Positions 2,975 through 37,903 of a stretch of DNA of 39,340 nt are shown here, piece by piece. Within the stretch, counting starts at the first letter, position 1; the number at the start of each line of letters is the position of its first letter. The notes under the pieces are model-generated. The model did no database searches. It saw only the letters and a program-made list of their open reading frames with translations, and was not told the DNA's origin. A program made the translations under genes and the position numbers. Origin of the DNA: a virus; the IMG/VR virus record IMGVR_UViG_3300046515_000081, positions 1-39,340 of that record. One strand, given 5' to 3'.

Positions 2975-2994
2975 GTCAGTAAATACTGATTGAC
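2975..2994 (+). promoter_or_regulatory. 20-bp palindrome copy 1, before terminase genes
   Basis: Reads GTCAGTAAATACTGATTGAC, a member of the intergenic 20-bp family. It is preceded by CATAAT (2969-2974), as in several other copies. It sits just upstream of the small terminase start. Confidence 0.75.
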
Positions 2995-3001
2995 AAATTG
3001 A

Positions 3002-3679
3002 ATGAAGATGGAAGCTGAAACAAACACTCCGGCTGAAGAAGAGACCGGCACGAAGGCGCAAGGACGCAGGCTTACGGAAGAAGAATTCGCCGAAGCGCGC
3101 GAGCTCTATGAGCTCGGTAAAGCGCGCCTGGCTGAGATCGCCGACAAGCTGAACGTCACGCGGCAAACCCTTTCGAAGAAGTTCAAGGACGCAGGCGTTG
3201 TTTGGGGCTCACGCGCTCACGAGACGCAAGCCGCGGTGTCTGCTGGTGTGAAGACTGCTGTCGCGGCAAACGCTGCTCAGACGGCTTCTGCGTTGATCGA
3301 CCGGTATGCGGAACGCCGCAACGACTGGATCGAGGAAACGCGCGTCCAGGGATACAAGTCTCTGAAGCAGGCCGACATGCTCGCCAAGAAGATCGTCGGC
3401 GAGGCGGTCAAGAACCGTGCTTCGATGGCCTCGATCGACGACGACCTGAAGGCTGTTCAGCGCTTCCAGAAGATTCTCGTCGAAAACACGCTCACGCGCC
3501 TCGATGTCCTGCGCGCCGACGAAGTGATCGACGAAGACGATCTGCCGCAGATCCACTTCGAGGATCTGACCGACGACGATATCCTGTCGCATCACCGCGA
3601 CAACGGTCTCATCCAGGAAGACGAGGACGCCGAGGAGATCCTGGCGTCCATCCATGCTTCCGAAGAGGAAAACCTCTGA
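3002..3679 (+). CDS. terS: Terminase small subunit
   Basis: 225 residues. An N-terminal helix-turn-helix is visible at about 42-61 (RLAEIADKLNVTRQTLSKKF), as expected for the packaging-site-binding domain of small terminases. A long helical central part (about 75-170) suits ring oligomerisation, and a very acidic C-terminal tail (EDEDAEEILASIHASEEE) is of the kind that contacts the large subunit. It is immediately followed by the large terminase with a TGATG overlap, the standard order. ATG 3002 is taken; ATG 3008 is an alternative, and neither has a strong ribosome site. It would bind phage DNA and present it to the motor. Small terminases diverge fast, so the call rests on layout plus HTH. 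Confidence 0.82.
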   Translation: MKMEAETNTPAEEETGTKAQGRRLTEEEFAEARELYELGKARLAEIADKLNVTRQTLSKKFKDAGVVWGSRAHETQAAVSAGVKTAVAANAAQTASALIDRYAERRNDWIEETRVQGYKSLKQADMLAKKIVGEAVKNRASMASIDDDLKAVQRFQKILVENTLTRLDVLRADEVIDEDDLPQIHFEDLTDDDILSHHRDNGLIQEDEDAEEILASIHASEEENL

Positions 3680-4953
3680 TGGGAGCCAATGTCATTCTGA
3701 AAGCCCACAAGGGGCAGAAGCTCGTCCTGAAGGACCGCCGGCGTTTCAAGGTGATCGTCGCCGGCCGCCGCTGGGGCAAGACGCAGATTTCTAAGATCGC
3801 GCTGATTAAGGCTGCATGCACGCGCCGCAATCAGCTCGTCTGGTATGTCGCGCCGACCTATCAGATGGCTCGACAGATCCTTTGGGAAGACCTGAAGCGC
3901 TGTATTCCGAAGAAGCTGATCGTCTGGAACGGCATCAACGAAACACGCATGACTATCCGGCTCATCAACGGCTCGCGGATTGAGCTGAAGGGCGCCGACA
4001 ATCCGGACTCGCTCCGCGGTGTTGGTATCAACTTCCTCGTCCTCGACGAATTCCAGGACATGAAGAAGGAGACCTGGGAAGAGGTTCTGCGTCCGACCCT
4101 GGCGTCCACCGGCGGCCAGGTCATCTTCATCGGCACGCCGAAGCAGTTCAACCACCTCTACGACATGTATGTCCTGGGTCAGCGTGGCGACACCTATGTC
4201 GACGAAAAGGGCAAGGTCGTCATCAACCAGTGGAAGAGCTGGCAGTTCCCGACGATCATGTCGCCATTCATTCCGCGATCGGAAATCGAGCACGCTCGCC
4301 GCGAAATGGATCCGAAGACCTTCCGCCAGGAGTTCGAGGCAAGCTTCGAGAGCATGTCCGGCCGCGTCTACTACGCCTTCGAGCGTCGCGAGCATGTGAA
4401 GCGCTGCGAATTCGATCCGCGCAAGCCGATCATCATCGGCCAGGACTTCAACATCGACCCGATGTCCTCGGTCGTTATGCAGATCCAGGACAACGGCGAG
4501 ATCCATGTGATCGACGAGATCATCCTTTACGGCTCCAACACGCAGGAAACAGCCGACGAGGTGGCTCGTCGCTATCACCGCCAGATGAACCAGATCACAT
4601 TCTATCCAGACCCTGCCGGCAACAACCGGTCACATGGGCGAGGGGAGTCTGACCTCGACATCCTGCGCGATGCCGGCTTTAAGCGGATCATCTTCAAGCG
4701 CAAGCATCCGGCCGTCTCCGATCGCGTCAACTCGGTCAACCGATTGCTGCGCTCGGCCGAAGGCACGATCCGAATGTATTTCGATCCGAAGTGCAAGAAG
4801 ACGATCGAGGCGATGGAGCAGACGATCTACAAGCCTGGAACGCGTGAGGTGGATAAGAAGATGGGCGTCGAACACCCTGCCGACGCGCTCGGCTATTTCA
4901 CCGATTACGAATATCCAGTCCGCAAGGTCGAGATTCTTGGTGTCAGCCTTTAA
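3679..4953 (+). CDS. terL: Terminase large subunit
   Basis: 424 residues. ATG 3679 overlaps the upstream stop; the frame is open further upstream, but that part lies inside the small subunit gene. The ATPase has Walker A GRRWGKT (29-35) and Walker B FLVLDEF with Asp123 and Glu124. An RNase H-like nuclease follows, with a first acidic residue in GQDFN (Asp256), a middle one in FYPDPAGN, and a last one in HPADALGYF (Asp402). This two-domain order is that of the DNA-packaging motor, which pumps DNA through the portal and cuts concatemers. Length is typical of compact Terminase_6-type proteins. The last codons run up to the next promoter-like site. Confidence 0.95.
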   Translation: MGANVILKAHKGQKLVLKDRRRFKVIVAGRRWGKTQISKIALIKAACTRRNQLVWYVAPTYQMARQILWEDLKRCIPKKLIVWNGINETRMTIRLINGSRIELKGADNPDSLRGVGINFLVLDEFQDMKKETWEEVLRPTLASTGGQVIFIGTPKQFNHLYDMYVLGQRGDTYVDEKGKVVINQWKSWQFPTIMSPFIPRSEIEHARREMDPKTFRQEFEASFESMSGRVYYAFERREHVKRCEFDPRKPIIIGQDFNIDPMSSVVMQIQDNGEIHVIDEIILYGSNTQETADEVARRYHRQMNQITFYPDPAGNNRSHGRGESDLDILRDAGFKRIIFKRKHPAVSDRVNSVNRLLRSAEGTIRMYFDPKCKKTIEAMEQTIYKPGTREVDKKMGVEHPADALGYFTDYEYPVRKVEILGVSL

Positions 4954-4955
4954 GG

Positions 4956-4984
4956 TTGCGTGTCAGTAAAAACTGACTTACAAT
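4956..4984 (+). promoter_or_regulatory. Promoter with embedded 20-bp palindrome, before portal gene
   Basis: TTGCGT (4956-4961) and TACAAT (4979-4984) are 17 bases apart, a good sigma-70 promoter. The palindrome copy GTCAGTAAAAACTGACTTAC (4962-4981) fills the spacer and enters the -10 box. An extra half-site TTGACTGAC lies at 4990-4998. A protein bound here would block polymerase; that is inference. Confidence 0.7.
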
Positions 4985-5012
4985 TTCTGTTGACTGACAC
5001 GAAGGCCTCATT

Positions 5013-6599
5013 ATGCAAGATTACGTCCTCCGCAATTTTTACGATCGCCGGCATCCAGACTATGCCCGTTCGATTGCGCATTGGCGTTTTCTGGAGAAGA
5101 CCTACGAGGGCGGCCGCGACTGGTTTGAAGACAACATCTTCAAATACGTCAAGGAGGGCGCGAAGGAATTCAAGGCTCGCAAGGCTCGTGCCTACCGCTT
5201 CAACCATACACGCGAAGTCGTCGACCTGGTTGTGAAGTATCTATTCAAGGGCGCCATCATCCGCAACACCGATGCGGCGCCGCAGTCCGTGCAGGATTTC
5301 TGGAAGAACTCCACCCTGCAGAACATGAACATCGCCCAGCTCATGCGCACCGGCACCACCTCGTCCTCGCAGAAGGGCAGGGTGGCGATCGTCGTTGATA
5401 ACAACGTTCGTCAGGACTCGATCTCTGTCGCCGAAGCCAAGCAATCCAAGATGCGCATCTACGCCTATCCGGTCGATGTGACGGATCTGCTTGACTACGC
5501 CTTTGACGAAGATGGCGACGGCGGCCTGCTTTGGGTGAAGATCCGCGAATACGTGCGCGACGACATCGATCCGCTCAACGGCTCTGGTGACGTCATGGCG
5601 CGCGTTCGCCTGTGGACGCGCACCGGCTGGCAGCTTTATGTCGAGACCGAAGAGACGTTCGAAGCGATCGGGGCTGACGGCAAGCGCTATCAGCAAAAGA
5701 AGATCAAACTCGAGGATTCGGGTGAGCACAAGCTCGGCAAGGTGCCGGTGATCTTCCTCGATCACATCATTACCGACAATCCGTATCGCACGCCTGGTCT
5801 GATTGACGATATCGCCTATCTCGACCGCGCCGTCGCAAACTACCTGTCGAACCTGGACGCCATCATCCAGGATCAGACCTTCTCGCAGCTCACCATGCCG
5901 GCGCAGGGACTGCTGCCAGGCGAGGAAGCTTACAACAAGCTGGTCGAACTCTCGACCAAGCGCGTCCTGATCTATGACGGCGGCACTGGCTCCAACGCAG
6001 CGCCCGAATTCATTTCGCCCGATCCGAAGCAGGCGCAGATGATCCTCACGGTGATCAACAAGATCATCGGCGAAATCTACAACACAGTTGGCCTGGCCGG
6101 CGAACGCACCAAGGAAGACAACTCCGTCGGTATCGACAACTCGTCCGGCGTTGCCAAGGCCTACGACTTCGAACGCGTCAACTCGCTCCTGACCTCGAAG
6201 GGGCAGTCGATGGAGAAGGCCGAAAACGAGATCGTTGAGCTGGTCTGCCTCTGGGCAGGCGATACCGTTCCGGATGAGCGCCTGGTCAAGTATCCGGAAA
6301 CCTATGACGTCATGCGTCTCATCGACGACCTGGCGATCGCAGAACAGCTCGCAACCGTGGACGCTCCGAAGGAAGTCCGCCGCGAGCAGATGCGCAACAT
6401 CATCGACAAGATCTTCCCGCGTCTCAAGAAGGACATCCGCGCGAAGATCGAGAAAGACATCGATGACTGGCTGGAAGGTGACGAACTTCTTCCGGTCCCT
6501 ACCACCTTCGGCAAGCCTTCAGCGACCAAGTCGCCAGTCGCACCTTCCCGTCAGGGGCAGGTGACGAAGTCCTCGCCGAACAAACAGGCCGCCAAGTAA
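5013..6599 (+). CDS. Portal protein
   Basis: 528 residues starting at ATG 5013, with GAAGG at 5001-5005. The opening resembles portal proteins of siphophages (RHPDYARSIAHWRFLEKTYEGG), followed by a long alpha/beta body and a helical C-terminal half (about 290-480) containing the stretch GEIYNTVGLAGERTKEDNSVGIDNSSGVAKAYDFERV, typical of the portal stem and crown helices. The tail end is rich in Ser, Pro and Lys. It sits directly after terminase and before scaffold and capsid, the canonical place. The dodecameric portal forms the DNA channel at one capsid vertex and docks terminase, later the neck. There is no sign of a fused protease or head-maturation domain. Confidence 0.9.
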   Translation: MQDYVLRNFYDRRHPDYARSIAHWRFLEKTYEGGRDWFEDNIFKYVKEGAKEFKARKARAYRFNHTREVVDLVVKYLFKGAIIRNTDAAPQSVQDFWKNSTLQNMNIAQLMRTGTTSSSQKGRVAIVVDNNVRQDSISVAEAKQSKMRIYAYPVDVTDLLDYAFDEDGDGGLLWVKIREYVRDDIDPLNGSGDVMARVRLWTRTGWQLYVETEETFEAIGADGKRYQQKKIKLEDSGEHKLGKVPVIFLDHIITDNPYRTPGLIDDIAYLDRAVANYLSNLDAIIQDQTFSQLTMPAQGLLPGEEAYNKLVELSTKRVLIYDGGTGSNAAPEFISPDPKQAQMILTVINKIIGEIYNTVGLAGERTKEDNSVGIDNSSGVAKAYDFERVNSLLTSKGQSMEKAENEIVELVCLWAGDTVPDERLVKYPETYDVMRLIDDLAIAEQLATVDAPKEVRREQMRNIIDKIFPRLKKDIRAKIEKDIDDWLEGDELLPVPTTFGKPSATKSPVAPSRQGQVTKSSPNKQAAK

Positions 6600-6617
6600 G
6601 GCCAACCACTGAAGAAA

Positions 6618-6703
6618 CCGCCGAGATACTGGCGGCCTGAAGACGTGCATACCCGAACGGCCAAGATACCGGCCAACCCCAAAGATCGCCCGAGATAATG
6701 GGC
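6618..6703 (+). repeat. Three tandem hairpins with a conserved 8-base loop
   Basis: Hairpin 1: CCGCC, loop GAGATACT, GGCGG (6618-6635). Hairpin 2: GGCC, loop AAGATACC, GGCC (6659-6674). Hairpin 3: GCCC, loop GAGATAAT, GGGC (6688-6703). The loops share RAGATA, all are 8 bases, and the stems differ yet stay paired. The third ends directly at the AAGGAG ribosome site of the scaffold gene (6704-6709). This 116-base gap has none of the 20-bp palindromes. Confidence 0.75.
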
Positions 6704-6715
6704 AAGGAGTAAGAC

Positions 6716-7624
6716 ATGACTGACGTGCTTAAGAAGTATTCCGCTGGTCGCGCATTCGGCGCCTTTGCAGCGATGAACATGCCCCATATGCCGCGCATCG
6801 CATTCGAAAAGCCCGACGATCTGGGCAATGGCGCTGGCGACAACAACGGTGGTGGCTCTGATGACAATTCTGGTTCCGATGATTCCACTGGCGGTTCTGA
6901 CGATGACGCTGCTGGTGATGACGACACTTCCGGCTCCGACAAGAGCGAGGCGGACAAGGCTCTCCTGCGCGAAGTCATGGAAAAGAAGGGCAAGATCAAG
7001 GATCTGACCGGCGAGGTTTCGACGCTCAAGGCTGAGCTGAAAAGGTTCGAAGGCATCAACCTCGATGAAGTCCGCGCGCTGATCGACGAAAAGAAGAATG
7101 CCGAGCTGCAGGCTGAAGAAGCCAAGGGCAACTTCGACCGCGTCAAGCAGATGATGGTCGAGGCGCACGAGAACGACAAGAAGACGCTCACCGACACGAT
7201 CGCCGATCTGCAGACGCAGCTCCAGAAGGCCAACGGCCAGATCGATGAACTGACGGTCGGCCGCTCGTTCTCCGAGTCCAAGTATATCGTGGATGAACTC
7301 GTGCTGACGCCGGCCAAGGCTCGCCAGCTCTACGGCGCTCACTTCGGTATCGAAGACGGCCAGGTCGTTGCTTACGACAAGCCGACAGGTGCCGACGCTC
7401 GCACGGTCTATACCGGTGGTGACGGCAAGCCGCTCGCTTTCGAGGATGCCATGAAGAAGCTGATCGAAGCCGATCCGGATCGCGATCGCCTGGTCAAGTC
7501 GAACATCAAGCCTGGCGCTGGTTCGGCCACCAAGAAGGTCGAAGACAAGACCGACAAGACCGGCGCCGACAAGACCTATGGCGTGTCGCGCATCCTCTTC
7601 TCCCTCAACAAAGAAGACAAATAA
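6716..7624 (+). CDS. Capsid scaffolding protein
   Basis: 302 residues with a strong ribosome site (AAGGAG, 6 bases before ATG). Residues 35-80 are a low-complexity Asp/Gly/Ser stretch. About 85-190 is a long charged coiled coil (EVMEKKGKIKDLTGEVSTLKAELKRFEGIN, continuing through QTQLQKANGQIDEL). A short basic-acidic C-terminal region ends in ILFSLNKEDK. This build, acidic linker plus coiled coil plus small capsid-binding tail, and the place between portal and major capsid gene, are those of assembly scaffolds, which template the procapsid and then leave. No protease domain is seen. The unusual three-hairpin leader may control how much of it is made relative to portal. Confidence 0.82.
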   Translation: MTDVLKKYSAGRAFGAFAAMNMPHMPRIAFEKPDDLGNGAGDNNGGGSDDNSGSDDSTGGSDDDAAGDDDTSGSDKSEADKALLREVMEKKGKIKDLTGEVSTLKAELKRFEGINLDEVRALIDEKKNAELQAEEAKGNFDRVKQMMVEAHENDKKTLTDTIADLQTQLQKANGQIDELTVGRSFSESKYIVDELVLTPAKARQLYGAHFGIEDGQVVAYDKPTGADARTVYTGGDGKPLAFEDAMKKLIEADPDRDRLVKSNIKPGAGSATKKVEDKTDKTGADKTYGVSRILFSLNKEDK

Positions 7625-7641
7625 TCAGGTTTAGCCTGATT
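7623..7641 (+). other. Small hairpin overlapping the scaffold stop codon
   Basis: AATCAGG (7623-7629) and CCTGATT (7635-7641) pair over a 5-base loop. No T tract follows directly. It may aid termination or RNA stability together with the next hairpin. Confidence 0.4.
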
Positions 7642-7646
7642 TATGG

Positions 7647-7677
7647 ATGTCAGTCAACAATTACTGACATTTTTTTC
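7647..7677 (+). terminator. Terminator-like hairpin containing a 20-bp palindrome copy
   Basis: ATGTCAGT (7647-7654), an 8-base loop and ACTGACAT (7663-7670) are followed by a run of T from 7671. The same bases form the palindrome family copy GTCAGTCAACAATTACTGAC (7649-7668). It could end scaffold transcription, act as an operator, or both. The stem is AT-rich and only moderately stable. Confidence 0.5.
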
Positions 7678-7738
7678 TTGCGTAGTCCAAGGTCGTCGGG
7701 TTAACATTATGTCAATCAATTTTGACTGACACCCGACG
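7678..7738 (+). promoter_or_regulatory. Promoter and operator-like palindrome for the major capsid gene
   Basis: TTGCGT (7678-7683), 18 bases, TAACAT (7702-7707) resemble a sigma-70 promoter. The palindrome GTCAATCAATTTTGACTGAC (7711-7730) lies at the expected start point. CGTCGGGT (7694-7701) and ACCCGACG (7731-7738) form an 8-bp inverted repeat around -10 and palindrome. The layout recurs before the tail tube gene. Confidence 0.65.
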
Positions 7739-7762
7739 GCCTGATTTCGTAAGGAGAATACA

Positions 7763-8665
7763 ATGCCGCTACTCGTGCAAGAAGCCGCGAAACTGTCCCA
7801 GGAGGACAAGGCTCGTGGCGTAATTGAGGAAATCATCGAACGCGATGATCTCTTCGCGCTGCTCCCGTTCCAGCATGTGAACGACAAGGTTTTCAGCTAC
7901 GTCCGCGAAGGCACGCTGTCTGAAGGCGAATTCCTGGACGCCTACGAAGAAGTCCCGGAAGGCGCTGCAACGTTCGAAGAAGTCACTGGCAAGCTCAAGG
8001 TGCTCGCTGGCGACGTCGACATCGACAAGTTCACGGCTTCCACGCAGTCGAACCTCAACCCGCAGATTGCTATCCAGCTCGCTGCGAAGGCAAAGGGTAT
8101 CGGCCGCAAGTATCGTCGCACGCTCGTCAACGGTGACTCCTCGGTCAACGCCAAGAGCTTCGACGGTATCAAGAAGCTGACGCCTGCCGCCCAGACGCTC
8201 GTCGCTGGTGCCAACGGTGCTGCTGTTTCTCCCGAAATGCTCGATGAGCTGCTCGACGCCGTTACCCTCGGCGCCGACGTGCTGATGATGCGCAAGGGCA
8301 CCTGGCGCGCTATCCGCTCCATCATGCGCTCCTTCGGTGGCAACACCGGCGACATGATCCAGATCCCGAACTTCGGCAAGCCCGTTCCGGCTTACGACGG
8401 TATCCCGGTCATCATCAACGACTACATCCTGGACGATGAAGTTCAGGGTTCGGCGAACGAGACGACCTCGATCTACGCTCTGCGCCTCAACGAAGCTGAC
8501 GGCTTCCACGGCGTTTACGGTGGTCCTTCCGCCGGCGTTCAGTTCGAAGACATCGGCACGATCCAGAACAAGGACGCGAGCCGGTTCCGTCTGAAGTGGT
8601 ATTCGGCGACTGCCCTCAAGGCAACTCACGCCGTTGCACGTCTGAAGGGCGTCCTCAACGTCTAA
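7763..8665 (+). CDS. Major capsid protein
   Basis: 300 residues with the strongest kind of ribosome site (AAGGAG, 6 bases before ATG). It has the general look of an HK97-fold coat protein: an N-terminal helix (LSQEDKARGVIEEIIERDDLFALLPF), an extended arm, the spine-helix and P-domain region (TPAAQTLVAGANGAAVSPEMLDELLDAVTL as one recognisable stretch), MMRKGTWRAIRSIM, and an A-domain loop around GKPVPAYDGIPVIIND, a phrase common in this fold. No N-terminal delta domain is needed because a separate scaffold gene precedes it. It has its own promoter and is followed by a terminator, consistent with very high late expression. Confidence 0.92.
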   Translation: MPLLVQEAAKLSQEDKARGVIEEIIERDDLFALLPFQHVNDKVFSYVREGTLSEGEFLDAYEEVPEGAATFEEVTGKLKVLAGDVDIDKFTASTQSNLNPQIAIQLAAKAKGIGRKYRRTLVNGDSSVNAKSFDGIKKLTPAAQTLVAGANGAAVSPEMLDELLDAVTLGADVLMMRKGTWRAIRSIMRSFGGNTGDMIQIPNFGKPVPAYDGIPVIINDYILDDEVQGSANETTSIYALRLNEADGFHGVYGGPSAGVQFEDIGTIQNKDASRFRLKWYSATALKATHAVARLKGVLNV

Positions 8666-8667
8666 TC

Positions 8668-8696
8668 TTGTTTGTCAGTAAAAACTGACTTACTAT
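8668..8696 (+). promoter_or_regulatory. Promoter with embedded 20-bp palindrome, after the capsid gene
   Basis: TTGTTT (8668-8673) and TACTAT (8691-8696) are 17 bases apart, with the copy GTCAGTAAAAACTGACTTAC (8674-8693) in the spacer. The predicted start point falls inside the left arm of the next terminator hairpin. Confidence 0.65.
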
Positions 8697-8724
8697 AAGG
8701 GGCAGGGTCATTCCTGCCCCTTTT
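8697..8724 (+). terminator. Rho-independent terminator after the capsid gene
   Basis: AAGGGGCAGG (8697-8706), loop GTCATT, CCTGCCCCTT (8713-8722), with the T run 8721-8724. A 10-bp GC-rich stem followed by T residues is a classic intrinsic terminator and would end the abundant capsid transcript. Confidence 0.85.
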
Positions 8725-8754
8725 GCTGTTTCCTCCAACCATGATTGGCGAAGA

Positions 8755-9840
8755 ATGAACTACCTCAAACTCACGTCCAAAGGATTCGAGACCTACAATG
8801 GACACCTCAACATCATCCTCTTCCGCGACGGTATCTCGACCACGCCCGTTCCTGAGCGGATTGCCGACCGCATTGCTGCGGCTACGGCTTGCGTTGCCTG
8901 CGACGAGGATGGAAATACCGGCGAGACTCTCCAGCACGTCGGTATTCAAAATCGTCTCATCGATGACTCCAAGAACCGTGCTCCGGTAGCAAAGCGTCTA
9001 GCTCGTCAATCCGACAGCGAGCGCAGCGTCGAAGAGCGCGTCGATCTGTCCAAGGCTCTGAAGGCTCCGAGCGAAACACTCTACACGCGTCAGGATCTTG
9101 AACTGCTCGCTGACAAGGCCGGCATCAAGGGTCTGCGCGACATCGGCAAGAACTGGAAGGTCACTGGCCGCGCCATCCCTGAGCTGATCGAGAAGATCCT
9201 CAATGCCCAGGCGAAGTTCCTCAAGCAGCGCGAGCAGGCGCTCGAAAGCCGCGGCGCTACCAAGAACCGCGTCACGACGATCGCCCAGGAAGAAAAGGCT
9301 GTCGAAGTTGTCGAGGAAGTTCCGGCCGCCGCAAGCATCGAGGGACTAGCCGAAGCTTACACTGCCAATGGCGAAGTCGTTGTTACTGGCGTCCAGCTCG
9401 TCGAGCGTGCCCTGAAGAACTCCGGCAAGTCGCTGACCGGCTGGAACACGCTGACCGACAAGGAGCGCAAGCCCTTCATCGATCGCGAGATCACCGCCCT
9501 TGAAGTCTTCAATTCCGCTCGCCTAAAGCCTGTCGTCACCGAAGCTTCGGCTGAAGAGAAGTCTGCTGAGCCCGAAAAGGCCGTCGAGCCTGAGAAGGCT
9601 GCCGAAGAGACCAAGCAGGAAGCTACTCCGGAAGGGGAGGGCGAGAAGCAGCCTGAAAGCACCGAGACGCCGGAAGGCGAAAAGGCGCCTGAAGACGAAA
9701 CGCCTTCGGCCGACCAGGACGACGCTGACGAGGACAACGCCTCTGATGCCGACGACGAAGACGATGGCGTCGATTTCATCGATGAGGACGAAGAGGCCGG
9801 CGACAAGCCTGCCGACGAAGACGCCAAGAAGGACGCATAA
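8755..9840 (+). CDS. Head-region structural protein of unknown function, acidic C-terminus
   Basis: 361 residues; GAAG just before ATG 8755 is the ribosome site. Residues about 109-152 (LYTRQDLELLADKAGIKGLRDI, continuing to IPELIEKILNAQ) form a small helix-extended-helix unit like SAP/HeH folds. A second small helical unit is at about 215-262 (GKSLTGWNTLTDKERKPFIDREI). From about 265 on the chain is low complexity, built from Glu, Lys, Pro and Ala, then strongly Asp/Glu-rich. Genes of this kind lie between capsid and neck genes in related phages, but I know no proven role. Capsid-associated or DNA-mimic roles are possible. Two Cys in CVAC (46-49) are notable. Confidence 0.7.
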   Translation: MNYLKLTSKGFETYNGHLNIILFRDGISTTPVPERIADRIAAATACVACDEDGNTGETLQHVGIQNRLIDDSKNRAPVAKRLARQSDSERSVEERVDLSKALKAPSETLYTRQDLELLADKAGIKGLRDIGKNWKVTGRAIPELIEKILNAQAKFLKQREQALESRGATKNRVTTIAQEEKAVEVVEEVPAAASIEGLAEAYTANGEVVVTGVQLVERALKNSGKSLTGWNTLTDKERKPFIDREITALEVFNSARLKPVVTEASAEEKSAEPEKAVEPEKAAEETKQEATPEGEGEKQPESTETPEGEKAPEDETPSADQDDADEDNASDADDEDDGVDFIDEDEEAGDKPADEDAKKDA

Positions 9841-9843
9841 CCA

Positions 9844-10647
9844 ATGCTGAAGCTCTACCCCGAGAACTATGACGTCGCCGTGGACGTTCTCTTCACCGAT
9901 CTGAATGGAGCGCCGGTCACTGTGACCGGTGTTGACGCGGTTCTGTATGATGGCGATGACGAGATCGTTGCCAGCTTCATGAACCTGCCGTTCGACCAGC
10001 CAGACGGCAAGAAGACGATCACGATCCCGGCTGCATTCAACCTTCTCGGGGAGAGCGATCTTTCGGTCGTGCGCGTGCTGCGCTCGACCCTTCACGCTGC
10101 AGCCGGCGATATCAACCGTTCGTTCGGCTATATCGTCGAAGGCGAGTCCCGCCTGGAGCTCCTCAACAATTCCTTCACGTCGCTTGAAGCTGCCGAAGCG
10201 GCAGCTCGCGACCTTCCAAACGTAAAGGCCTGGCTGGCTGCCAGCGACGAGCAGAAAGCAGCCGCTCTGATCCAGGCCTATTCGCGCGTCTCGCGCATCC
10301 AGGTTCGTTTCCCGCTGACACCTGAAGAGACGGACACTCGAGACTTTGACGAGCGCCAATATTGGATCGTTCGACCTGGTCAGTGGACCGAGATCCCGAA
10401 AGACCAGTTCCTCGGCTTCCCGAAAGACTTCCGCCGTGCGCTGCGCGCCGCCCAGGTCTCCGAAGCCAACGTCATCCTCACCGACAATCCTGTCACGCAG
10501 CGCCACCGCTCCGGCATTATCTCCGAGACGATCGGCGAAAGCTCTGTGATGCTGCGCGGCGGCAAGCTCGAGCTCGGCGTCGATAACGAGACGCTGCGCT
10601 GCCTCTCAGGCTATGTCTATTACGATGTGCGAGTTGTCCGCGGATGA
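9844..10647 (+). CDS. Head-tail connector (adaptor) protein
   Basis: 267 residues. The first 105 or so look like a small beta-sandwich with repeated strands (VAVDVLFTDLNGAPVTVTGVDAVLYDGDDEIV). The rest, beginning at LPNVKAWLAASDEQKAAALIQAYSRVSRI, is the helical phrase found in gp6/gp15-type connectors, which dock under the portal ring. The C-terminal half ends in a beta segment (SVMLRGGKLELGVDNETLRCLSGYVYYDVRVVRG). Its place, third after the capsid gene and before the stopper and tail-completion genes, agrees. The Ig-like N-terminal domain is larger than in minimal connectors. It starts 3 bases after the previous stop and overlaps the next start (ATGA). Confidence 0.7.
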   Translation: MLKLYPENYDVAVDVLFTDLNGAPVTVTGVDAVLYDGDDEIVASFMNLPFDQPDGKKTITIPAAFNLLGESDLSVVRVLRSTLHAAAGDINRSFGYIVEGESRLELLNNSFTSLEAAEAAARDLPNVKAWLAASDEQKAAALIQAYSRVSRIQVRFPLTPEETDTRDFDERQYWIVRPGQWTEIPKDQFLGFPKDFRRALRAAQVSEANVILTDNPVTQRHRSGIISETIGESSVMLRGGKLELGVDNETLRCLSGYVYYDVRVVRG

Positions 10648-11414
10648 TTACCAATCTTCTGTCTGACAAGGCCGGCGCCGCCTATAATCGATATGGCCTC
10701 TTTACCGACGGCCTGAAATCCATTCACCGCGGCGCTTTGCTGCGCTCCGACTTCGGCTCTGCCTCGCTTACCGATCAACTGCGCAAGCACGCAATGCACC
10801 AGGGCTCCACCTTCCTGGATAGCGAGCTGGTTCAGATGCGGACCGACATTCAGGAAATCGCTGAGATTGCGCGCACAGTGACGTTGCGCGAAATTCAGAG
10901 CAACGACACGTCAAATCTGACGGACGCGATTGTCGAGCATACTGACGCGTCTTACGACTATTTCCAGACTGAGCTTGTGGTGCAGCAGACGCGTGACATC
11001 GCAACGCTGCAACGCGCGATGCAAAGGGCAGGGCTGGAAGTTAGCATTGCAGCTCGCTCGCGCGGCAAGTCCCACCGATCGGCACTGATGGAATACACCT
11101 TCGGCAACAAGGCCGACGTCGAGTTCTTCTTCCACGACCGCGCCTCGAGGAAATACGAAAGCCGTCTGTTCGTGCGCTCGCTCTACCGCCAGACGCTTCT
11201 GTCCGTTTACAACGAGACGGTTCTCTTCACGCTGGCCGATCACGGCATGACGCATGCGGTTGTCGAGCATCATTCGCCCGAATCCGAATTCCACGGCCTG
11301 ATGATCGCGCTGTCATCCAGCAATGAGCTGCCGACCTATTCAGAGATCCGCGACAAGGTCTTTCACCCGAACGCCAATGCTTATCTGAGGATGGACACTG
11401 ATGTTTCTGCCTAA
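10644..11414 (+). CDS. Hypothetical neck/head protein
   Basis: 256 residues, mostly helical (about 40-140: EIAEIARTVTLREIQ, YDYFQTELVVQQTRDIATLQRAMQRAG), then a mixed C-terminal domain. The order RSLYRQTLLSVYNETVLFTLADHGMTHAVVEHHSPESEFHGLMI and later KVFHPNANAYLR vaguely recalls the C-terminal region of Mu F / SPP1 gp7 minor head proteins (a helix, then a small domain ending in a 'HPNC' loop), but the Cys residues are missing. It has ATGA overlap upstream and a 14-base overlap with the stopper gene. I treat it as a virion neck or inner-head protein with unproven family. The minor head reading is only a suggestion. Confidence 0.55.
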   Translation: MITNLLSDKAGAAYNRYGLFTDGLKSIHRGALLRSDFGSASLTDQLRKHAMHQGSTFLDSELVQMRTDIQEIAEIARTVTLREIQSNDTSNLTDAIVEHTDASYDYFQTELVVQQTRDIATLQRAMQRAGLEVSIAARSRGKSHRSALMEYTFGNKADVEFFFHDRASRKYESRLFVRSLYRQTLLSVYNETVLFTLADHGMTHAVVEHHSPESEFHGLMIALSSSNELPTYSEIRDKVFHPNANAYLRMDTDVSA

Positions 11415-11748
11415 TGGCTCCTGCACGCTGCGCCGCAAGGCTGGTCGCGACAAGTTCGGCCAGGCAAAGCTCTCCGATCCTGTGACGATCAGCTACGCGC
11501 CGGTCGATATGAACATGACCGTCGAGAAGACGTCCGTCCGCTCCGATAGCTCGGCGACGCGCGGCCAGGCAGAACAGTTGGTCTCGGCCAATGCCAAGAT
11601 CCTCGTTCCAGCCAAGACCGTCGTCGGCGCTGGCGACCAGCTTGAGATCGATGGTGAGAACTATCGCGTCTCTGGCCGGCACGCTCGCAAGAACGTCTTC
11701 GGCAATGTCGATCACATCGAACTGCTGTTGGAGGTCTTCCCGGCATGA
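11401..11748 (+). CDS. Head closure / stopper protein
   Basis: 115 residues, predicted mainly beta (GSCTLRRKAGRDKFGQAKLSDPVTISYAPVDM, then QLEIDGENYRVSGRHARKNVFGNVDHIELLLEVF). Small beta-barrel proteins with an 'IDG..YRVSGR' strand near the end are typical head-closure (SPP1 gp16-like) proteins that seal the connector after packaging. It sits between the connector pair and the tail-completion gene, as expected. It overlaps the upstream gene by 14 bases and the next by 4 (ATGA). Family membership is inferred from fold pattern and position. Confidence 0.65.
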   Translation: MFLPNGSCTLRRKAGRDKFGQAKLSDPVTISYAPVDMNMTVEKTSVRSDSSATRGQAEQLVSANAKILVPAKTVVGAGDQLEIDGENYRVSGRHARKNVFGNVDHIELLLEVFPA

Positions 11749-12179
11749 TCGAAATGAAGGTGACAGGTGTCGCTGATACGATCCTGGGGCTGCGCAACAC
11801 CGGCGAGCGCGTGGCAGCCAACGCCCGTAAGGTCATGCACCGCGCCGCCGACAAGATTGTTGAGCGCGCACGCCTGATGGCGCCTGTCGACAAGGGCAAC
11901 CTCGAGGACGCGATCCAGAAGCAAGTGACCTACGAAGGAAAGCGCAACCGTCTGGCGATCGACATTGTGCTCCTCGATAGCGTCAACGGCGTCGATATCA
12001 CCGATTACGGGCGCGAAATGCACGAGGGGATCTACAATCTCGGACCTCTGTCCGAAGAGAAGCAGTCCAGGACCGGCGTCCAGGTCGGACGCGAATTCAT
12101 CACGCGTGCAGCCAAGGAACAGAAAGACAAGCTCGAGCCGGCTGTGCTCGCGGCCATCAAGGACGGAGTAAAGATTTGA
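11745..12179 (+). CDS. HK97 gp10-like tail completion / neck protein
   Basis: 144 residues. The opening EMKVTGVADTILGLRNTGERVAANARKVMHRAADKIVERARLMAPVDKGNLEDAI is the standard gp10-family pattern: strand, two long helices and the 'AP.D.G.L..SI' turn. The C-terminal part adds beta strands and a Lys-rich end. Members cap the head-proximal end of the tail or join it to the head. The gene order stopper, gp10-like, terminator, tube is canonical. ATGA overlap upstream; its stop overlaps the TTG start of the next gene. Confidence 0.85.
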   Translation: MIEMKVTGVADTILGLRNTGERVAANARKVMHRAADKIVERARLMAPVDKGNLEDAIQKQVTYEGKRNRLAIDIVLLDSVNGVDITDYGREMHEGIYNLGPLSEEKQSRTGVQVGREFITRAAKEQKDKLEPAVLAAIKDGVKI

Positions 12180-12595: not shown

Positions 12596-12613
12596 ACCCG
12601 TTCGGGTTGGCTT

Positions 12614-12633
12614 GTCAATAAATACTTACTGAT
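12614..12633 (+). promoter_or_regulatory. 20-bp palindrome copy, upstream site of the tail tube pair
   Basis: Reads GTCAATAAATACTTACTGAT, a degenerate member of the family. TTGGCT (12607-12612) and GATATT (12631-12636) flank it at 18 bases and could be a weak promoter. A short hairpin AACCCG/CGGGTT (12595-12608) overlaps the preceding stop. Confidence 0.55.
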
Positions 12634-12638
12634 ATTAC

Positions 12639-12691
12639 TTGCTTACGGCAGGCGATATGCGTTACCATTATGCCAATCAATTTTGACTGAC
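12639..12691 (+). promoter_or_regulatory. Promoter and operator-like palindrome for the tail tube gene
   Basis: TTGCTT (12639-12644), 18 bases, TACCAT (12663-12668), then the palindrome GCCAATCAATTTTGACTGAC (12672-12691) at the expected start point. It has the same arrangement, and nearly the same bases from -10 onward, as the major capsid promoter at 7678. Confidence 0.68.
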
Positions 12692-28288: not shown

Positions 28289-28925
28289 GCTTGTGCCATC
28301 CAAGCGCGCGGCCGCTGCGATCGCCGCCGCCATTGCGACCGCCAGTGCTGCTGGCTGGCACTCGACCAAGGATACCGATCCGGTCAAGCACGTCTACCCG
28401 CCGGCCGTCATCCTGGCGTCCGAACACCTGATCAAGACCTGGGAAGGTGTTGTGCTGAAGACGCACTACGATCCCTTCGCCAAGATCAACGATATCTGCT
28501 ACGGCAAGACGCGCATCAACGGAAAGCCAATTCCGGCTGGCATGACCGTGACGCTCCAGCAGTGCCAGGATTGGCTGCGCGAGGATCTCTTCGCCGGCTA
28601 TTACCAGCCGCTGACCAAGAAGATCACTGGCTACACGTCCTTTCCGATCGGCAACCAGGCATCTCAGCTCTCCGGCGGCTACAATTTCGGCGTCGGCGCC
28701 ATGTCTAAGTCCACCGCCGCCAGGCTGGCAACGGAAGCCTATCTCCTCTCGCTCAAGGGTGAGACCGCCAAGGCTACCGCCAAATATCTCGCATCCTGTG
28801 AAGCACAGCGCGCATTCGACAAGGCTGGTGGCCAGAAGGTCCGCGGTCTCGAGCTGCGCCGCGGCATGGGCGACAAGCAACGCATGGGCGAAGGTGAGGT
28901 CTGCGTCACCGGCCAGGTCAAGTAA
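28275..28925 (+). CDS. Endolysin, GH24-type lysozyme with signal-anchor N-terminus
   Basis: 216 residues from ATG 28275. The N-terminus has a weakly hydrophobic Ala/Ile segment at about 11-27 (RAAAAIAAAIATASAAGW), typical of signal-arrest-release lysozymes. The catalytic region reads TWEGVVLKTHYDPFAKINDICYGKTR: Glu57 and Asp66 are at the right spacing, but the Thr of the usual Glu-Asp-Thr triad is replaced by Asn72 or Asp73, with an apparent one-residue shift before ICYG. The phrase GNQASQLSGGYNFGVGAMSKST follows the family. It cleaves peptidoglycan after the holin triggers. Cys75, Cys105, Cys175 and Cys210 might take part in disulfide control. Confidence 0.88.
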   Translation: MPINKLVPSKRAAAAIAAAIATASAAGWHSTKDTDPVKHVYPPAVILASEHLIKTWEGVVLKTHYDPFAKINDICYGKTRINGKPIPAGMTVTLQQCQDWLREDLFAGYYQPLTKKITGYTSFPIGNQASQLSGGYNFGVGAMSKSTAARLATEAYLLSLKGETAKATAKYLASCEAQRAFDKAGGQKVRGLELRRGMGDKQRMGEGEVCVTGQVK

Positions 28926-28934
28926 GGAATAGAA

Positions 28935-29363
28935 ATGACGAAAGCGATTCAATCCGTAATTAGCGAAATCGCTCTTTCGCTAGTGTCCGATGGCAAGCCT
29001 GTCTTCGGTATCACTGAGCTCCAGGCCAGGCTCGATGGTGTTCCGGTCGAAGGCATCGAGGTCGATCCTGAAGATCTTCAGGATCTGCTCGGAGCCGAGC
29101 TCTTCGAGGCTAATGGCTATGACGAGCTTCCGGACGAGGTCCAGGCGCAGATGGTCCGCAACGCCTACGATCTCGGCGAGACGCGCGCCAACATTCTCCT
29201 CCAGGCTGCTCTGACACAGGTGACATCGGCTCTGCACATCACCGGCACGCTCGAAAAGGCCGACTTCGACTTCGCGCACCAGATTGCCAACGAGCAGCCA
29301 GGTCTCCTGTCGGATTGCCTGACGCAGCGCCGGACCATCCTCATGAAGAGGATCGAGGCATGA
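28935..29363 (+). CDS. Hypothetical protein in lysis cassette
   Basis: 142 residues, helical and acidic (SVISEIALSLVSDGKPVFGITELQARLDG, DPEDLQDLLGAELFEANGYDELPDEVQAQMVRNAYDLGE, ILLQAALTQVTSALHITGTLEKADFDFAHQIANEQPG). There is no signal peptide or membrane segment, so it is cytoplasmic. It starts 9 bases after the endolysin stop with AAGGA as ribosome site, and overlaps the Rz-like gene by ATGA. It is not recognised. Because the cassette is otherwise pure lysis, regulation of lysis timing or a moron role are possible, neither shown. Confidence 0.7.
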   Translation: MTKAIQSVISEIALSLVSDGKPVFGITELQARLDGVPVEGIEVDPEDLQDLLGAELFEANGYDELPDEVQAQMVRNAYDLGETRANILLQAALTQVTSALHITGTLEKADFDFAHQIANEQPGLLSDCLTQRRTILMKRIEA

Positions 29364-29749: not shown

Positions 29750-29987
29750 TCGCTACGTCGCGGCACCTGTCGTCGAGGAATACAAGCCGAAACGGCCGGC
29801 AACCCTGAAGCTCGAAAACGAGACGTTCCGGATGTGTGAGCACGAGGACACGACGACTGTTGTCTGCATGGGTATCGACGACGCCAAGAAGATCATCCGG
29901 AATAAGGTGAAGATCACCTCGTATGTAAAGGAAACCAATGCGGTTTTAGACTTTTACGAACGTTCCGGAACGCCGTCTTCTCACTAA
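29658..29987 (+). CDS. Outer-membrane lipoprotein spanin, Rz1-like
   Basis: 109 residues from ATG 29658 (AAGG just upstream); ATG 29670 would give 105. The signal peptide MRKALLLTALMVSTLTLTGC ends in lipobox LTGC, so the mature chain starts at the Cys. It starts inside the Rz-like gene in a different frame, the nested pattern known from lambda Rz/Rz1. The mature part is longer than usual and less Pro-rich, with two further Cys (RMCEHEDTTTVVCMG). The stop codon TAA lies inside the 20-bp repeat at 29972-29991. Its predicted partner is the i-spanin just upstream. Confidence 0.8.
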   Translation: MKLPMRKALLLTALMVSTLTLTGCLSNRAADRYVAAPVVEEYKPKRPATLKLENETFRMCEHEDTTTVVCMGIDDAKKIIRNKVKITSYVKETNAVLDFYERSGTPSSH

Positions 29988-30035
29988 TATAAGATACATA
30001 GAAAGATAGATTATTATGTATGAAGACGGCTCCGG
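29961..30035 (+). repeat. Second copy of the AT-rich inverted-repeat element
   Basis: The stretch GCCGTCTTCTCACTAATATA (29972-29991) is identical to 2884-2903. CGTTCCGGAACG (29961-29972) is a perfect palindrome at its left edge. GAAGACGGCTCCGG (30022-30035), already inside the next gene, is the exact complement of CCGGAGCCGTCTTC at 2879-2892 and can pair with the left arm here. The region 29985-30015 is very AT-rich and may contain a promoter (TATAAG at 29988). Confidence 0.7.
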
Positions 30036-31881
30036 AAAGACTTCTTCCTCTCATGCTTCGGATCTTAGATTTGCTGAGGTTTATAACGACCTTGCGACGT
30101 ATCCTTTCCTCGCAGACGTAGCCTACGAGCTCGATATCTCCTATCAAACAGTCCGGAACAAAGCTGCGGTCCTGCGTGGTCGTAAGCGCCATGGAGAAGA
30201 CGTTCCGGATCTGATCTCTCGTGTCGGTGTCAAAGCACCTGGCAAGGAGAAGGAATTTGTCGATCCGATCGTTCACGCGAACGCACGCGCCGATCATCTG
30301 CGCGAGCAGCTCCACGACCTCCTGACCTCGTCGCGCTATCCAGTGACCAACCCTGAAGCCGTGATGGTCGAGGGAACGCTGAACGACCGCTACAACAGAA
30401 CGTCGGGCTCGCGTGAGAAAACCGAAGGTGTTCCGCGCACCTGGTTGACCGATAAGCTGCGCGGCGAAGGTGTCGAGGATCCTCGAGGCCGCAAGTTCCT
30501 GTTCACCGGCGCACAGAACGATTGTCCGGTCGATCCCGATTTCTGGCTGAACCTACAGGCCTACGCCGAATATCTCGACGCCGATATCGTCATTGGTCCA
30601 GGCACCTATGAAACGCAGTGGTGGGCTGAAAACAATCCTGCCGTCCGCTCTTACGCTCCGGAGATTCAGGAGTTCCTTTGCTTCGGCCAGATGGAGATCG
30701 GAAACGAGTTCGTCTTTGCAGGCGAAATGAACATGCTGCCGACGGCAAACAGGCCGGTGTCTGACCTGGCGAATTACTCGGCCGGCAAGTGGACCGTGTT
30801 TCCGCATGCCAAGCGCCAGCTCCAGTCCATCGCCTCGCTCGATCCACACAAGCAGGCTCACCAGATCATGACGACTGGCCTCGTCACGCGTCCGAAGATC
30901 ATTCCGCGCAAGGCCGGCATCAAGTCGCTCGCCTATCACACGATCGGCGCCACCATCGTTGAGTTCGACCAGGATGGCGATCTCTTCTGTCGGCAGATCA
31001 CCGCCGGTCCAAATGGCGCATTCTATGACCTCGAATACTTCGTCTCTGATGGCGTCGTAGACCTCCATGACGGTGTCGATCTGATCGTCGCCGCCGACTG
31101 GCACCTTCGCAAGTTCCACAAGGAGAACTCGAAGGCTGTCCTCCACCGATCGACCGGAATGATTGCGGTCCTGCAAGCGAAAGAACTGGCTGTTCATGAC
31201 ATCTTCGACAACGAAACGCGGAATCACCACCACGTCCACGACAACGCCCATTCCTACGAAATGGCTATTCGAGGAAGAGAGAGCGTCTTCTCCGAGATTT
31301 CCGACGTCGCGGAATTCCTCGCTGAAGTCTCGCAGGCCGTAAAGGTCACGGTCGTCGAAGCCAACCACGATATCGCGCTTGAGCGCTATGTAAGGGAAGG
31401 GCGCTATCGCAACGACGGCATCAACATTCGGCTCGGCTTGCAGCTCGAGGACGCCTACCTGGAAGCGCGCGAGCGCCAGGCTAACCAGCTCGATAGTGGC
31501 GAGCCGGTCGATAGCTTCAGTCTTCTGGAATACGCCGTCCGCACAATTGGGGACCGAGCCGATCTGGATCTGGGCAATGTGAATTGGGTCCACGATGGCT
31601 ACTCCTACACGGTCAATGGTGTCGAGGTTGGCAATCACGGCTTCCGCGGTGCGAACGGAGCTCGCGGCACAATGGCAGGCTTTGCCGCGCTCGGCCGCAA
31701 GATGACGATCGGCGACAAGCACACGCCAGGCATTCTGGATGACGTGTTCTGCGTCGGCGCCATGAACCTTCGGCACGGCTACAATAAGGGGCCGAGCGGC
31801 TGGGCTGTCACTCAAGGCGTTCACTATCCAGATGGCAACCGCACGCTCGTTACCTTCCAGAACTCGAAATGGCGTGGCTGA
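30016..31881 (+). CDS. Helix-turn-helix plus metallophosphoesterase protein (A1-like)
   Basis: 621 residues. An N-terminal helix-turn-helix lies at about 32-55 (LADVAYELDISYQTVRNKAAVLRGR). A middle alpha/beta domain (about 158-300: KFLFTGAQNDCPVDPDFWLNLQAYAEYLDADIVIGPG) is followed by a calcineurin-type domain with Asp361 and His363 (VAADWHL), a His-rich stretch NHHHVHDNAH (403-412), an NHD motif at 450-452, and His541 (VGNHGF) and His569 (GDKHTPG). This is a near-complete two-metal site. Several phages carry such proteins, annotated as transcription regulators or T5 A1-like; A1 halts host DNA functions early in T5 infection. The function here is inferred. Its own leader differs from all late blocks. 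Confidence 0.7.
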   Translation: MYEDGSGKTSSSHASDLRFAEVYNDLATYPFLADVAYELDISYQTVRNKAAVLRGRKRHGEDVPDLISRVGVKAPGKEKEFVDPIVHANARADHLREQLHDLLTSSRYPVTNPEAVMVEGTLNDRYNRTSGSREKTEGVPRTWLTDKLRGEGVEDPRGRKFLFTGAQNDCPVDPDFWLNLQAYAEYLDADIVIGPGTYETQWWAENNPAVRSYAPEIQEFLCFGQMEIGNEFVFAGEMNMLPTANRPVSDLANYSAGKWTVFPHAKRQLQSIASLDPHKQAHQIMTTGLVTRPKIIPRKAGIKSLAYHTIGATIVEFDQDGDLFCRQITAGPNGAFYDLEYFVSDGVVDLHDGVDLIVAADWHLRKFHKENSKAVLHRSTGMIAVLQAKELAVHDIFDNETRNHHHVHDNAHSYEMAIRGRESVFSEISDVAEFLAEVSQAVKVTVVEANHDIALERYVREGRYRNDGINIRLGLQLEDAYLEARERQANQLDSGEPVDSFSLLEYAVRTIGDRADLDLGNVNWVHDGYSYTVNGVEVGNHGFRGANGARGTMAGFAALGRKMTIGDKHTPGILDDVFCVGAMNLRHGYNKGPSGWAVTQGVHYPDGNRTLVTFQNSKWRG

Positions 31882-31883
31882 TG

Positions 31884-31912
31884 TTGTCAGTCATTATTGA
31901 CTGACATATAAT
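31884..31912 (+). promoter_or_regulatory. Strong promoter overlapped by a 20-bp palindrome, before the fibre genes
   Basis: TTGTCA (31884-31889), 17 bases, TATAAT (31907-31912) is one mismatch from the sigma-70 consensus. The copy GTCAGTCATTATTGACTGAC (31886-31905) overlaps the -35 box and spacer. It is the best promoter seen in the window. Confidence 0.8.
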
Positions 31913-36205: not shown

Positions 36206-36227
36206 TTATCAGTCAGTATTTACTGAC
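36194..36227 (+). promoter_or_regulatory. Promoter-like site with 20-bp palindrome, before the phoH-like gene
   Basis: TTGTCG (36194-36199), 17 bases, TATTTA (36217-36222) is a possible promoter. The copy ATCAGTCAGTATTTACTGAC (36208-36227) covers its -10 box; its inner 16 bases from 36212 also form GTCAGT-4-ACTGAC. Confidence 0.6.
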
Positions 36228-37138: not shown

Positions 37139-37817
37139 TCCAATTGACGACGACATCGTAGCGTTCAAATACCTAGACAAGAAGCTCCAGGCTCTCGAGC
37201 CGGAGCTTTTTCGCTCCAAGTGGTTCGACTATCGGATGATGACGCCGGTCCAGGCGACCAGGCTCTATATCGAGGCCTTCTCCGAGATCTATCGCTCCTA
37301 TTTCGCGACCGAGATCAACAAGAAGGCAGCACCCTTCATCAAGCTCGTCACCGCCGACAAGATCATGGCAGGGCTTGAGGCCGACGATCGCAAGGCGAAG
37401 TCGATGTTCTCCAGCTACTCCAGAGGCCGCCAGGTCGCAGACGCGATCGGCATGCCATACAAGCACTATATCCATATCACGATGGGCTACAGGCTCCGTT
37501 TCTGGCAGCAACGCGGCCTTCCGCAGCCGCACCAGCTCTATGCGAGCGTGGATGTGGAGAAGACAATCGCACGCTGGGAAGAAATGCAGGCTGGCGAATT
37601 GTTTCTGTCTGAACATCCGGCATACATGCTCCAGAACTATCACGGCCTGGCTCACCAGGACGACTATCACGAGTGGCTCATCAAACAGGCCGGTATCCGG
37701 TCTAACCCTGCGCAAGCGTTCGCGCGCTTCATTAATGATGATCTGCTGCCGCTCGACAAGGTGAGCGCTCGCCTCGACCCTGACATGGTCATGCGCGTTC
37801 ACTCGTATCTCCGATAG
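37104..37817 (+). CDS. Hypothetical protein between PhoH and helicase
   Basis: 237 residues starting at ATG 37104 inside the PhoH gene (35-base overlap). Mostly helical: FRSKWFDYRMMTPVQATRLYIEAFSEIYRSYFA, KAAPFIKLVTADKIMAGL, then YKHYIHITMGYRLRFWQQRGLPQPHQLYASVDVEKTIARWEEMQAGELF, and a His/Tyr-rich turn YMLQNYHGLAHQDDYHEWL. There is no nucleotide-binding motif and no membrane part. The family is not recognised. Neighbours suggest DNA replication or recombination. The conserved-looking Trp, His and Tyr content marks a real folded protein. It is followed by a terminator. Confidence 0.75.
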   Translation: MQAAQTSDARIDPIDDDIVAFKYLDKKLQALEPELFRSKWFDYRMMTPVQATRLYIEAFSEIYRSYFATEINKKAAPFIKLVTADKIMAGLEADDRKAKSMFSSYSRGRQVADAIGMPYKHYIHITMGYRLRFWQQRGLPQPHQLYASVDVEKTIARWEEMQAGELFLSEHPAYMLQNYHGLAHQDDYHEWLIKQAGIRSNPAQAFARFINDDLLPLDKVSARLDPDMVMRVHSYLR

Positions 37818-37828
37818 CAACCCAAATC

Positions 37829-37873
37829 AGTCGCGCATATTCTCTGAAACAAGAGATAGCGCGACTTGCTTTT
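37829..37873 (+). terminator. Terminator-like hairpin before the helicase gene
   Basis: AGTCGCGC (37829-37836) pairs with GCGCGACT (37859-37866); inside it TCTCT (37841-37845) pairs with AGAGA (37852-37856) over a 6-base loop. TGCTTTT follows. The stem is GC-rich at its base; the T run is short. The end overlaps the next -35 box. Confidence 0.65.
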
Positions 37874-37903
37874 GACTAAGCATGTAAGTAAATACTGACT
37901 GAC
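37866..37903 (+). promoter_or_regulatory. Promoter with 20-bp palindrome, before the helicase gene
   Basis: TTGCTT (37866-37871), 17 bases, TAAATA (37889-37894) is a plausible sigma-70 promoter. The copy GTAAGTAAATACTGACTGAC (37884-37903) overlaps the -10 box and start point. AAGG lies before the helicase ATG. Confidence 0.65.

Follow-up and report, generated by a model that had tools for sequence, protein, structure and literature searches.

Dispersed palindromes of a Rhizobium phage-plasmid as putative operators of a Cro/C1-type lysogeny repressor

The window analysed here, the 39,340 nucleotides of the IMG/VR virus record IMGVR_UViG_3300046515_000081, contains terminase, portal, capsid, tail and helicase genes of a phage, and between its genes a 20-bp palindrome recurs 15 times (Table 1). 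A preliminary description made from the letters alone had listed these copies as lying between genes. All 15 20-mers indeed occur at the places given there, 15-19 of their 20 positions being identical to GTCAGTCAATATTGACTGAC, and each is either intergenic or overlaps, over 9 nt or less, a start or stop that was predicted mechanically, in a window whose coding share is 95% by the chosen set of open reading frames (some boundaries were entered by hand). With a 22-bp matrix built from the 15 copies, each scores at least 29.4 bits and the runner-up place in the window 11.0 bits, a gap of 18 bits separating the listed copies from the rest; block-shuffled windows yielded a mean of 0.5 matches at 8 bits or more. 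The dyad is extended by a preceding T and a following A at 25 of 30 half-site ends, as had been noticed before. The refined half-site is RTMARTMA, giving a full motif of RTMARTMA-N4-TKAYTKAY with two RTMA tetramers per half, and a further match with two mismatches at 6705 is probably due to chance. As argued below, the palindromes are quite likely the dispersed operators of the lysogeny (immunity) repressor of a phage-plasmid.

The window covers part of a phage genome of 115 kb, and a second IMG/VR record, G013 (115,555 bp), represents the same phage at more than 99.9% identity. Window positions 1-16657 match this record at 100% and positions 16531-39340 at 99.991%, and because of the 127-bp overlap between their ends G013 is probably circular and complete. 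The 22,810-bp match contains two differing positions, one of which is base 1 of the operator at 36208; the A and the G found there both fit the R of the motif. Relatives with a name, RHph_Y2_11, N1_10, RHEph10 and B1VFA, are phages of Rhizobium with genomes of 115-122 kb, and plasmid-borne relatives are pLM21S1, pRlX6 and p5. The Rhizobium relatives carry repC and parA, homologs of both are also encoded in G013, and we infer that this phage lives as a plasmid. The genome announcement of B1VFA and V1VFA-S regards the two as possible prophage-plasmids and, without reference to operators, notes a predicted regulator that binds DNA.

A scan of the full-length genome and its relatives showed that the motif is a genome-wide feature. 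At no more than one mismatch, 43 sites were found in G013, 39 in Y2_11, 37 in N1_10 and 34 in RHEph10, compared to 0-0.1 in shuffled sequences (0.0 for G013), and the full-length genome holds about 45 sites in total. The sites are not scattered in genes: by the deposited annotation of Y2_11, 40 of 42 sites (up to two mismatches) are intergenic. This annotation was used instead of the G013 count (32 of 48 intergenic) because the simple gene caller took 49 minus-strand reading frames among 156, many of them probably false. A reversed-sequence control is uninformative for such a scan, since a reversed dyad is still a dyad. The pair of sites before the major capsid gene is spaced by 62 bp in the window, Y2_11 and N1_10, and the pair before the tail gene by 58 bp in the window and 48 bp in Y2_11, N1_10 and RHEph10. 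The dyad is conserved in many related phages, with a shifted motif, RTAAGTAAG-NN-CTTACTTAY, in B1VFA, pLM21S1 and pRlX6 and with ATAAGTCA-type or mixed half-sites in distant records.

To relate the sites to promoters, pairs of -35 and -10 hexamers were scored against flank-shuffled controls, with the sites of G004, G006 and G013 all taken on the plus strand; pair scoring without flank shuffling is confounded by the letters of the site. In a spacer class, the palindrome takes up the whole 17-nt spacer and ends with the first three bases of the -10 (TAC+AAT and similar). This class was enriched both in group 1, to which the window belongs (0.185 versus 0.032 shuffled, 81 sites), and in group 2 (0.293 versus 0.179 shuffled, 116 sites). 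The window sites at 4962, 8674, 12614 and 19184 belong to it, the class being enriched over flank-shuffled controls in G013 and Y2_11. In an abutting class, the -10 adjoins the palindrome, which covers the start point (group 2, 0.267 versus 0.068 shuffled). A scan for the -10 by offset only had been weak for the group of the window (28% versus 14-26%), and the flank-shuffled pair scoring resolved it. A strict promoter scan of both strands of the window gave no excess over shuffles (6 versus 4.9; 5 versus 7.4); among its four plus-strand matches, one abuts the site at 2975 and two overlap those at 25594 and 31886. The sigma-70 overlap earlier proposed for about ten loci holds in part; the number ten exceeds what these tests support.

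A different upstream element was seen by eye in B1VFA and pLM21S1 (L010-L015), where many sites of non-structural genes are preceded by a recurrent TCC and, 10-15 nt on, by CGCTATAA, which ends beside the palindrome. This element could be the promoter type of a phage-encoded sigma factor.

The most likely reader of the sites, judging from sequence, is a 139-aa Cro/C1-type (XRE) protein encoded outside the window. Its gene (L038:9977-10396, equal to G013 29948-30367) lies 7.1 kb past the right end of the window, with a palindrome site 124 bp upstream, in a row formed by repC (27962-29086, minus strand), a small RHH gene and the XRE-type gene; the repC-XRE neighbourhood has the same order in Y2_11, N1_10, RHEph10, B1VFA and pLM21S1. 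The HTH_3 profile matches the G013 protein with 18.4 bits (E 0.0022), below the 23-bit cut-off, and its B1VFA ortholog with 30.1 bits, above it. The predicted structure (pLDDT 89) has a 434 Cro-like fold (2cro, TMt 0.77, E 0.014); a Foldseek search with this model gave no match at E of 0.001 or below, the top one being ClgR (0.005). By sequence, the protein matches the 8bny chain 'Immunity repressor protein' best among solved structures (E 8e-5). In the prophage plasmid pRlX6 (L016, L017), where numerous genes (repC, portal, tape measure) are annotated as truncated or in pieces, the XRE frame is still open, and 29 motif matches lie in the two stretches examined.

Because the first distant genomes had been found through the XRE gene, a second sample was drawn via the terminase, comprising the best 80 of at least 576 relatives. 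At 74 of these 80 best TerL loci there is at least one motif match with up to two mismatches, a lone match in an AT-rich record being possibly due to chance. Among 24 larger records of this sample, 20 encode the XRE protein and all 20 have matches near terL, whereas the four without XRE have none, a split that is 1 in 10,626 by count of arrangements when kinship is ignored. These 24 were chosen by size from the 80, including the four larger zero-match records; outside the set are the zero-match L147 and L157 (short) and L176, L182 and L184 (50-53 kb), as well as L129-L131, L139, L142 and L145, which are large and whose XRE was already known. Genome-wide, the XRE-less G030, G031 and G035 (104-112 kb) have 0, 1 and 0 sites at no more than one mismatch. 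The fourth XRE-less record, G040, is a weak negative, being a 48-kb fragment off which the gene may lie; this relative (L284-L286) carries eight copies of another dyad, TAACTAA-N4-TTAGTTA.

The base at half-site position 7 varies with the identity of one recognition-helix residue, with C alongside lysine or arginine and A alongside asparagine. The fraction of C at this position is 0.5-1.0 in ten genomes with K/R and 0.03-0.85 in nine genomes with N (at least two sites each; below 0.4 in seven of the nine), an association with a Mann-Whitney p of 0.0006 for 10 versus 9 genomes, uncorrected for kinship. With other helix residues (S, Q, T, L, A) the fraction ranges from 0 to 1. Excluded from the test were the single-site N genomes G024, G033, G034 and G038, genomes with other residues, and G005 and G007; G022 was excluded from the pair test only. 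Such tracking matches what a protein-DNA contact predicts. Over 124 sites the two arms of the palindrome vary independently (66 paired versus 66.1 expected at positions 3/18; 62 versus 74.2 at 7/14), which fits sites read as DNA by a dimer and not an RNA stem.

One operator has a conserved place beside the capsid gene. In 21 of 23 XRE-bearing genomes, including Escherichia coli Cyrano, a site lies 4-8 nt past the capsid stop (up to two mismatches, permissive pattern), just ahead of a GC-rich hairpin followed by T's. The hairpin is kept in the XRE-less G030, G031 and G035, where the best site matches have 4, 2 and 5 mismatches, that of G031 starting 1 nt past the capsid stop. A start about 7 nt beyond the -10 of the operator-promoter would fall within the 5' arm of the terminator, and because the promoter's own transcripts would begin inside this arm, they would escape the terminator.

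Table 1. Putative operators and associated features of the window
Positions	Feature	Strand	Position in G013
2975-2994	Putative operator; -10-like CATAAT (2969-2974) abuts		
4962-4981	Putative operator filling the spacer TTGCGT (4956-4961) -17 nt- TACAAT (4979-4984), between the TerL and portal genes		103860
7649-7668	Putative operator, upstream member of the pair before the major capsid gene		
7711-7730	Putative operator, downstream member of the major capsid pair		
8674-8693	Putative operator, 8 nt past the major capsid stop; fills the spacer TTGTTT (8668-8673) - TACTAT (8691-8696)		107572
8697-8722	Intrinsic terminator of the capsid gene, directly 3' of the operator at 8674	+	
12614-12633	Putative operator, upstream member of the pair before the tail gene; spacer-class match		111512
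12672-12691	Putative operator, downstream member of the tail-gene pair		
13248-13267	Putative operator		
13282-13301	Weak copy, two mismatches; left arm able to pair with the right arm of 13248		
14057-14076	Putative operator before the tape measure gene		
19184-19203	Putative operator in the spacer ahead of the -10 TACAAT (19201-19206)		2654
25594-25613	Putative operator; right arm provides the -35 TTGACT (promoter-like 25605-25632)		
27664-27683	Putative operator		
31886-31905	Putative operator within promoter-like TTGTCA-17-TATAAT (31884-31912)		
36208-36227	Putative operator; base 1 is A in the window, G in G013		19678
37884-37903	Putative operator before the DnaB-like helicase gene		

Cyrano, an SSU5-like phage-plasmid, connects the window to a lysogen with expression data. 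Homologs of 49 of the 168 Y2_11 proteins were found in Cyrano (pLF82) at E 1e-3, including TerL, portal, MCP, CobT, CobS, PolIII and XRE, and both have the gene order XRE-small gene-CobT-CobS-...-PolIII. Like the phage of the window, Cyrano is rich in sites of this family, with 27 at 15 bits or more under its own matrix (shuffled 0-1), but it has RepA in place of repC plus an integrase, and its half-site is approximately ATARGTAA. Its XRE protein, CYRAN_45, adjoins the integrase and is annotated 'putative repressor'. According to the Cyrano paper, where the gene is also listed as a putative repressor, transcription of CYRAN_45 in lysogens is 10-fold over the prophage background, and Cyrano is induced 39-fold by ciprofloxacin (PMC9928086). 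Of the 14 Cyrano genes expressed in lysogens, none has a matrix site in the 200 bp upstream, compared to 25 of the 109 others (p=0.034).

Cyrano also has a second dispersed palindrome, approximately TAAACAA-N-TTGTTTA, with 11 copies (nine in G032; two in shuffles), which may belong to a second regulator. The Cyrano copies (L304-L306; at 81, 29258, 32079, 58594, 80548, 81277, 93113, 93164, 96285, 97189 and 98424) are all intergenic, and no gene expressed in lysogens has one in the 200 bp before it.

The XRE gene often adjoins a maintenance module, whose kind differs between genomes: repC in the Rhizobium group, parA and parB in G014, and AlpA and an integrase (overlapping frames) in G009. The G014 region also contains palindromic repeats and a further HTH_36 protein that may be Rep. 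Five near-copies of TTGTCGTACCGGTACGACAA lie at L039:12677-13035, at the end of and just past the parB gene, and are likely a centromere.

Taken together, the conserved dyad, the promoter overlap and the co-occurrence with XRE support, at the level of sequence, the earlier proposal of one dimeric regulator acting on capsid, tail, lysis, fibre and replication genes. An XRE dimer would bind the palindrome with one recognition helix per RTMARTMA half. In a lysogen it would shut RNA polymerase out at some 30-50 promoters, either from within the 17-nt spacer between the -35 and -10 or from over the start point beside the -10. Its own gene is probably self-tuned via the site 124 bp upstream, and if the protein were lost, the lytic genes would be turned on jointly. 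The capsid and tail genes, with two operators each, match the expectation that strong promoters require tighter silencing. Repression by XRE, as opposed to activation or a roadblock, is the mode to which promoter geometry and Cyrano point. A broader proposal is somewhat more probable than its negation: that one repressor family, with a helix code of K/R to C and N to A at position 7, silences up to about 50 promoters per genome across the phage-plasmid lineage from Rhizobium to E. coli, perhaps also in Acinetobacter (XRE match only), whatever the mode of maintenance (repC, parAB or integrase), including a conserved operator-promoter at the capsid terminator.

Several observations weigh against the reading of the palindromes as repressor operators. 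The abutting promoter class is weak in group 1 (best offset 0.086 versus 0.021), two of the 42 Y2_11 sites are inside genes, and at no more than one mismatch G036 has only four sites (0.6 shuffled) and Cyrano only nine (0.4 shuffled). No site lies directly upstream of the Cyrano XRE gene, the integrase of G011 and G012 is far from XRE, and G027 and G036 lack the capsid-terminator site (five mismatches each). Mitomycin C is reported not to have induced pLM21S1 (PMC5537653). As for the helix residue, G011 with N reads C (0.85), a clear exception, and G022 with K reaches only 0.5, from two sites. This correlation has few independent changes, so that a kinship-corrected test is too small, and the helix position was picked after half-sites had been compared across genomes; among six K/R genomes read after that choice, the C fraction is 1.0 in G019, G021, G025, G026 and G027 and 0.5 in G022. 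The TerL tree needs only two changes in XRE presence, each with site loss, and because there are only two, the kinship-corrected test of XRE against motif (two pairs, p=0.5, motif states entered by hand) is powerless.

Other explanations differ in what the bound protein does. Replication, structural and lysis genes alike are preceded by sites, and B1VFA came from plaques, as would fit an XRE protein acting as activator or temporal regulator of the lytic cycle rather than as lysogeny repressor. This reading is improbable given that the palindrome sits in the -35/-10 spacer or over the start point, where occlusion is expected, that plasmid-borne relatives keep both gene and sites, and that the Cyrano XRE gene is transcribed in lysogens, where none of the 14 expressed genes bears a site. 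An alternative modelled on the stoperators of L5, in which bound repressor mainly halts elongating polymerase between genes, draws on the dispersed layout, the many sites in small gaps near stop codons and the site that 21 of 23 genomes have immediately ahead of the capsid terminator. We consider it unlikely, as the sites are symmetric, the fraction aligned with promoter hexamers is above that of flank-shuffled controls, and a -35/-10 pair accounts for the terminator-side site as well. The likeness to L5 drawn in the preliminary description applies to the layout of many short dispersed sites and not to the sites themselves, which are palindromes here and asymmetric, monomer-read sequences in L5.

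The sites might also be read by another phage protein, namely the RHH protein by repC (079), the RHH protein by parA (021), the sigma factor (084) or the winged-helix protein (2622-2876) that had been put forward for a binding test. All four are encoded in Y2_11 and G013, where no more than 6 kb separates 079 or 084 from XRE. Their distribution makes such a reader very improbable: at E 1e-3, 079 has no homolog in G009, G010, G011, G003 (a 28-kb fragment in this comparison) and G014, 021 none in G009, G011, G003 and G014, the sigma factor none in G003 and G014, and all four none in Cyrano, while the motif is kept in records without these candidates and XRE tracks its presence in the TerL sample. 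The RHH proteins and the sigma factor were rejected as universal readers for their patchy distribution. The winged-helix protein has no Pfam match above cut-off and matches only phrog_900, of unknown function (E 5e-4); it was likewise rejected, its Y2_11 ortholog having no homolog (E 1e-3) in the site-bearing G009, G011, G014, G003 fragment and Cyrano. That the sites are RNA hairpins or partition or packaging marks is hardly credible, although palindromes can form stems and phage-plasmids need centromeres: placement is promoter-linked, sites persist in G009 and G011 with an integrase and no detected ParA, and the lack of covariation between the arms over the 124 sites led us to reject an RNA hairpin.

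Among known systems, P1 C1 appears a nearer working model for the proposed XRE repressor than L5. C1 is described as one repressor that silences lytic genes of a plasmid prophage through 22 dispersed operators (PMC8546580), which resembles the many sites (43 in G013) and single repressor proposed here. P1 operators are described there as 17-bp and asymmetric (PMC8546580), unlike the symmetric 20-mer with some 30-50 sites, and the reader in the present phage is probably a Cro/C1-type HTH protein. The L5-type repressor is reported to bind an asymmetric sequence as a monomer and also to end elongation (PMC9283540), whereas some window sites overlap promoters. A Roseobacter phage-plasmid with a C1-type repressor, set beside this one by description, is a far smaller phage of 42 kb. 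The word 'operator' is absent from the main text of the Cyrano paper (PMC9928086), as are 'operator' and 'palindrom' from that of the Roseobacter paper, and neither an account of this operator network nor a binding experiment on it was found in the literature searched, in which coverage of subscription journals was limited.

On the best reading, the system would be spread through the SSU5-like phage-plasmid lineage. The XRE protein matches 242 plasmid records, 186 from Escherichia and 27 from Acinetobacter; ten of these matches cover 80% of the protein, the remaining listed ones mainly its HTH part. Phage-plasmids of this kind look widespread, and their silencing is barely described in the papers reviewed. 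If the proposal is correct, a named repressor with its operators would make regulons, inducibility and immunity groups, that is, which phage-plasmids exclude each other, predictable from sequence, and the correlation between helix residue and base opens the co-evolution of repressor and operator to direct tests. Upstream of XRE homologs of Rhodobacteraceae (L045, L048, L052, L061, L066 and L069), an imperfect dyad of approximately GCAGCAC-N-GCTG was seen by eye soon after CGCTATA, and these homologs are possibly the same family with another operator.

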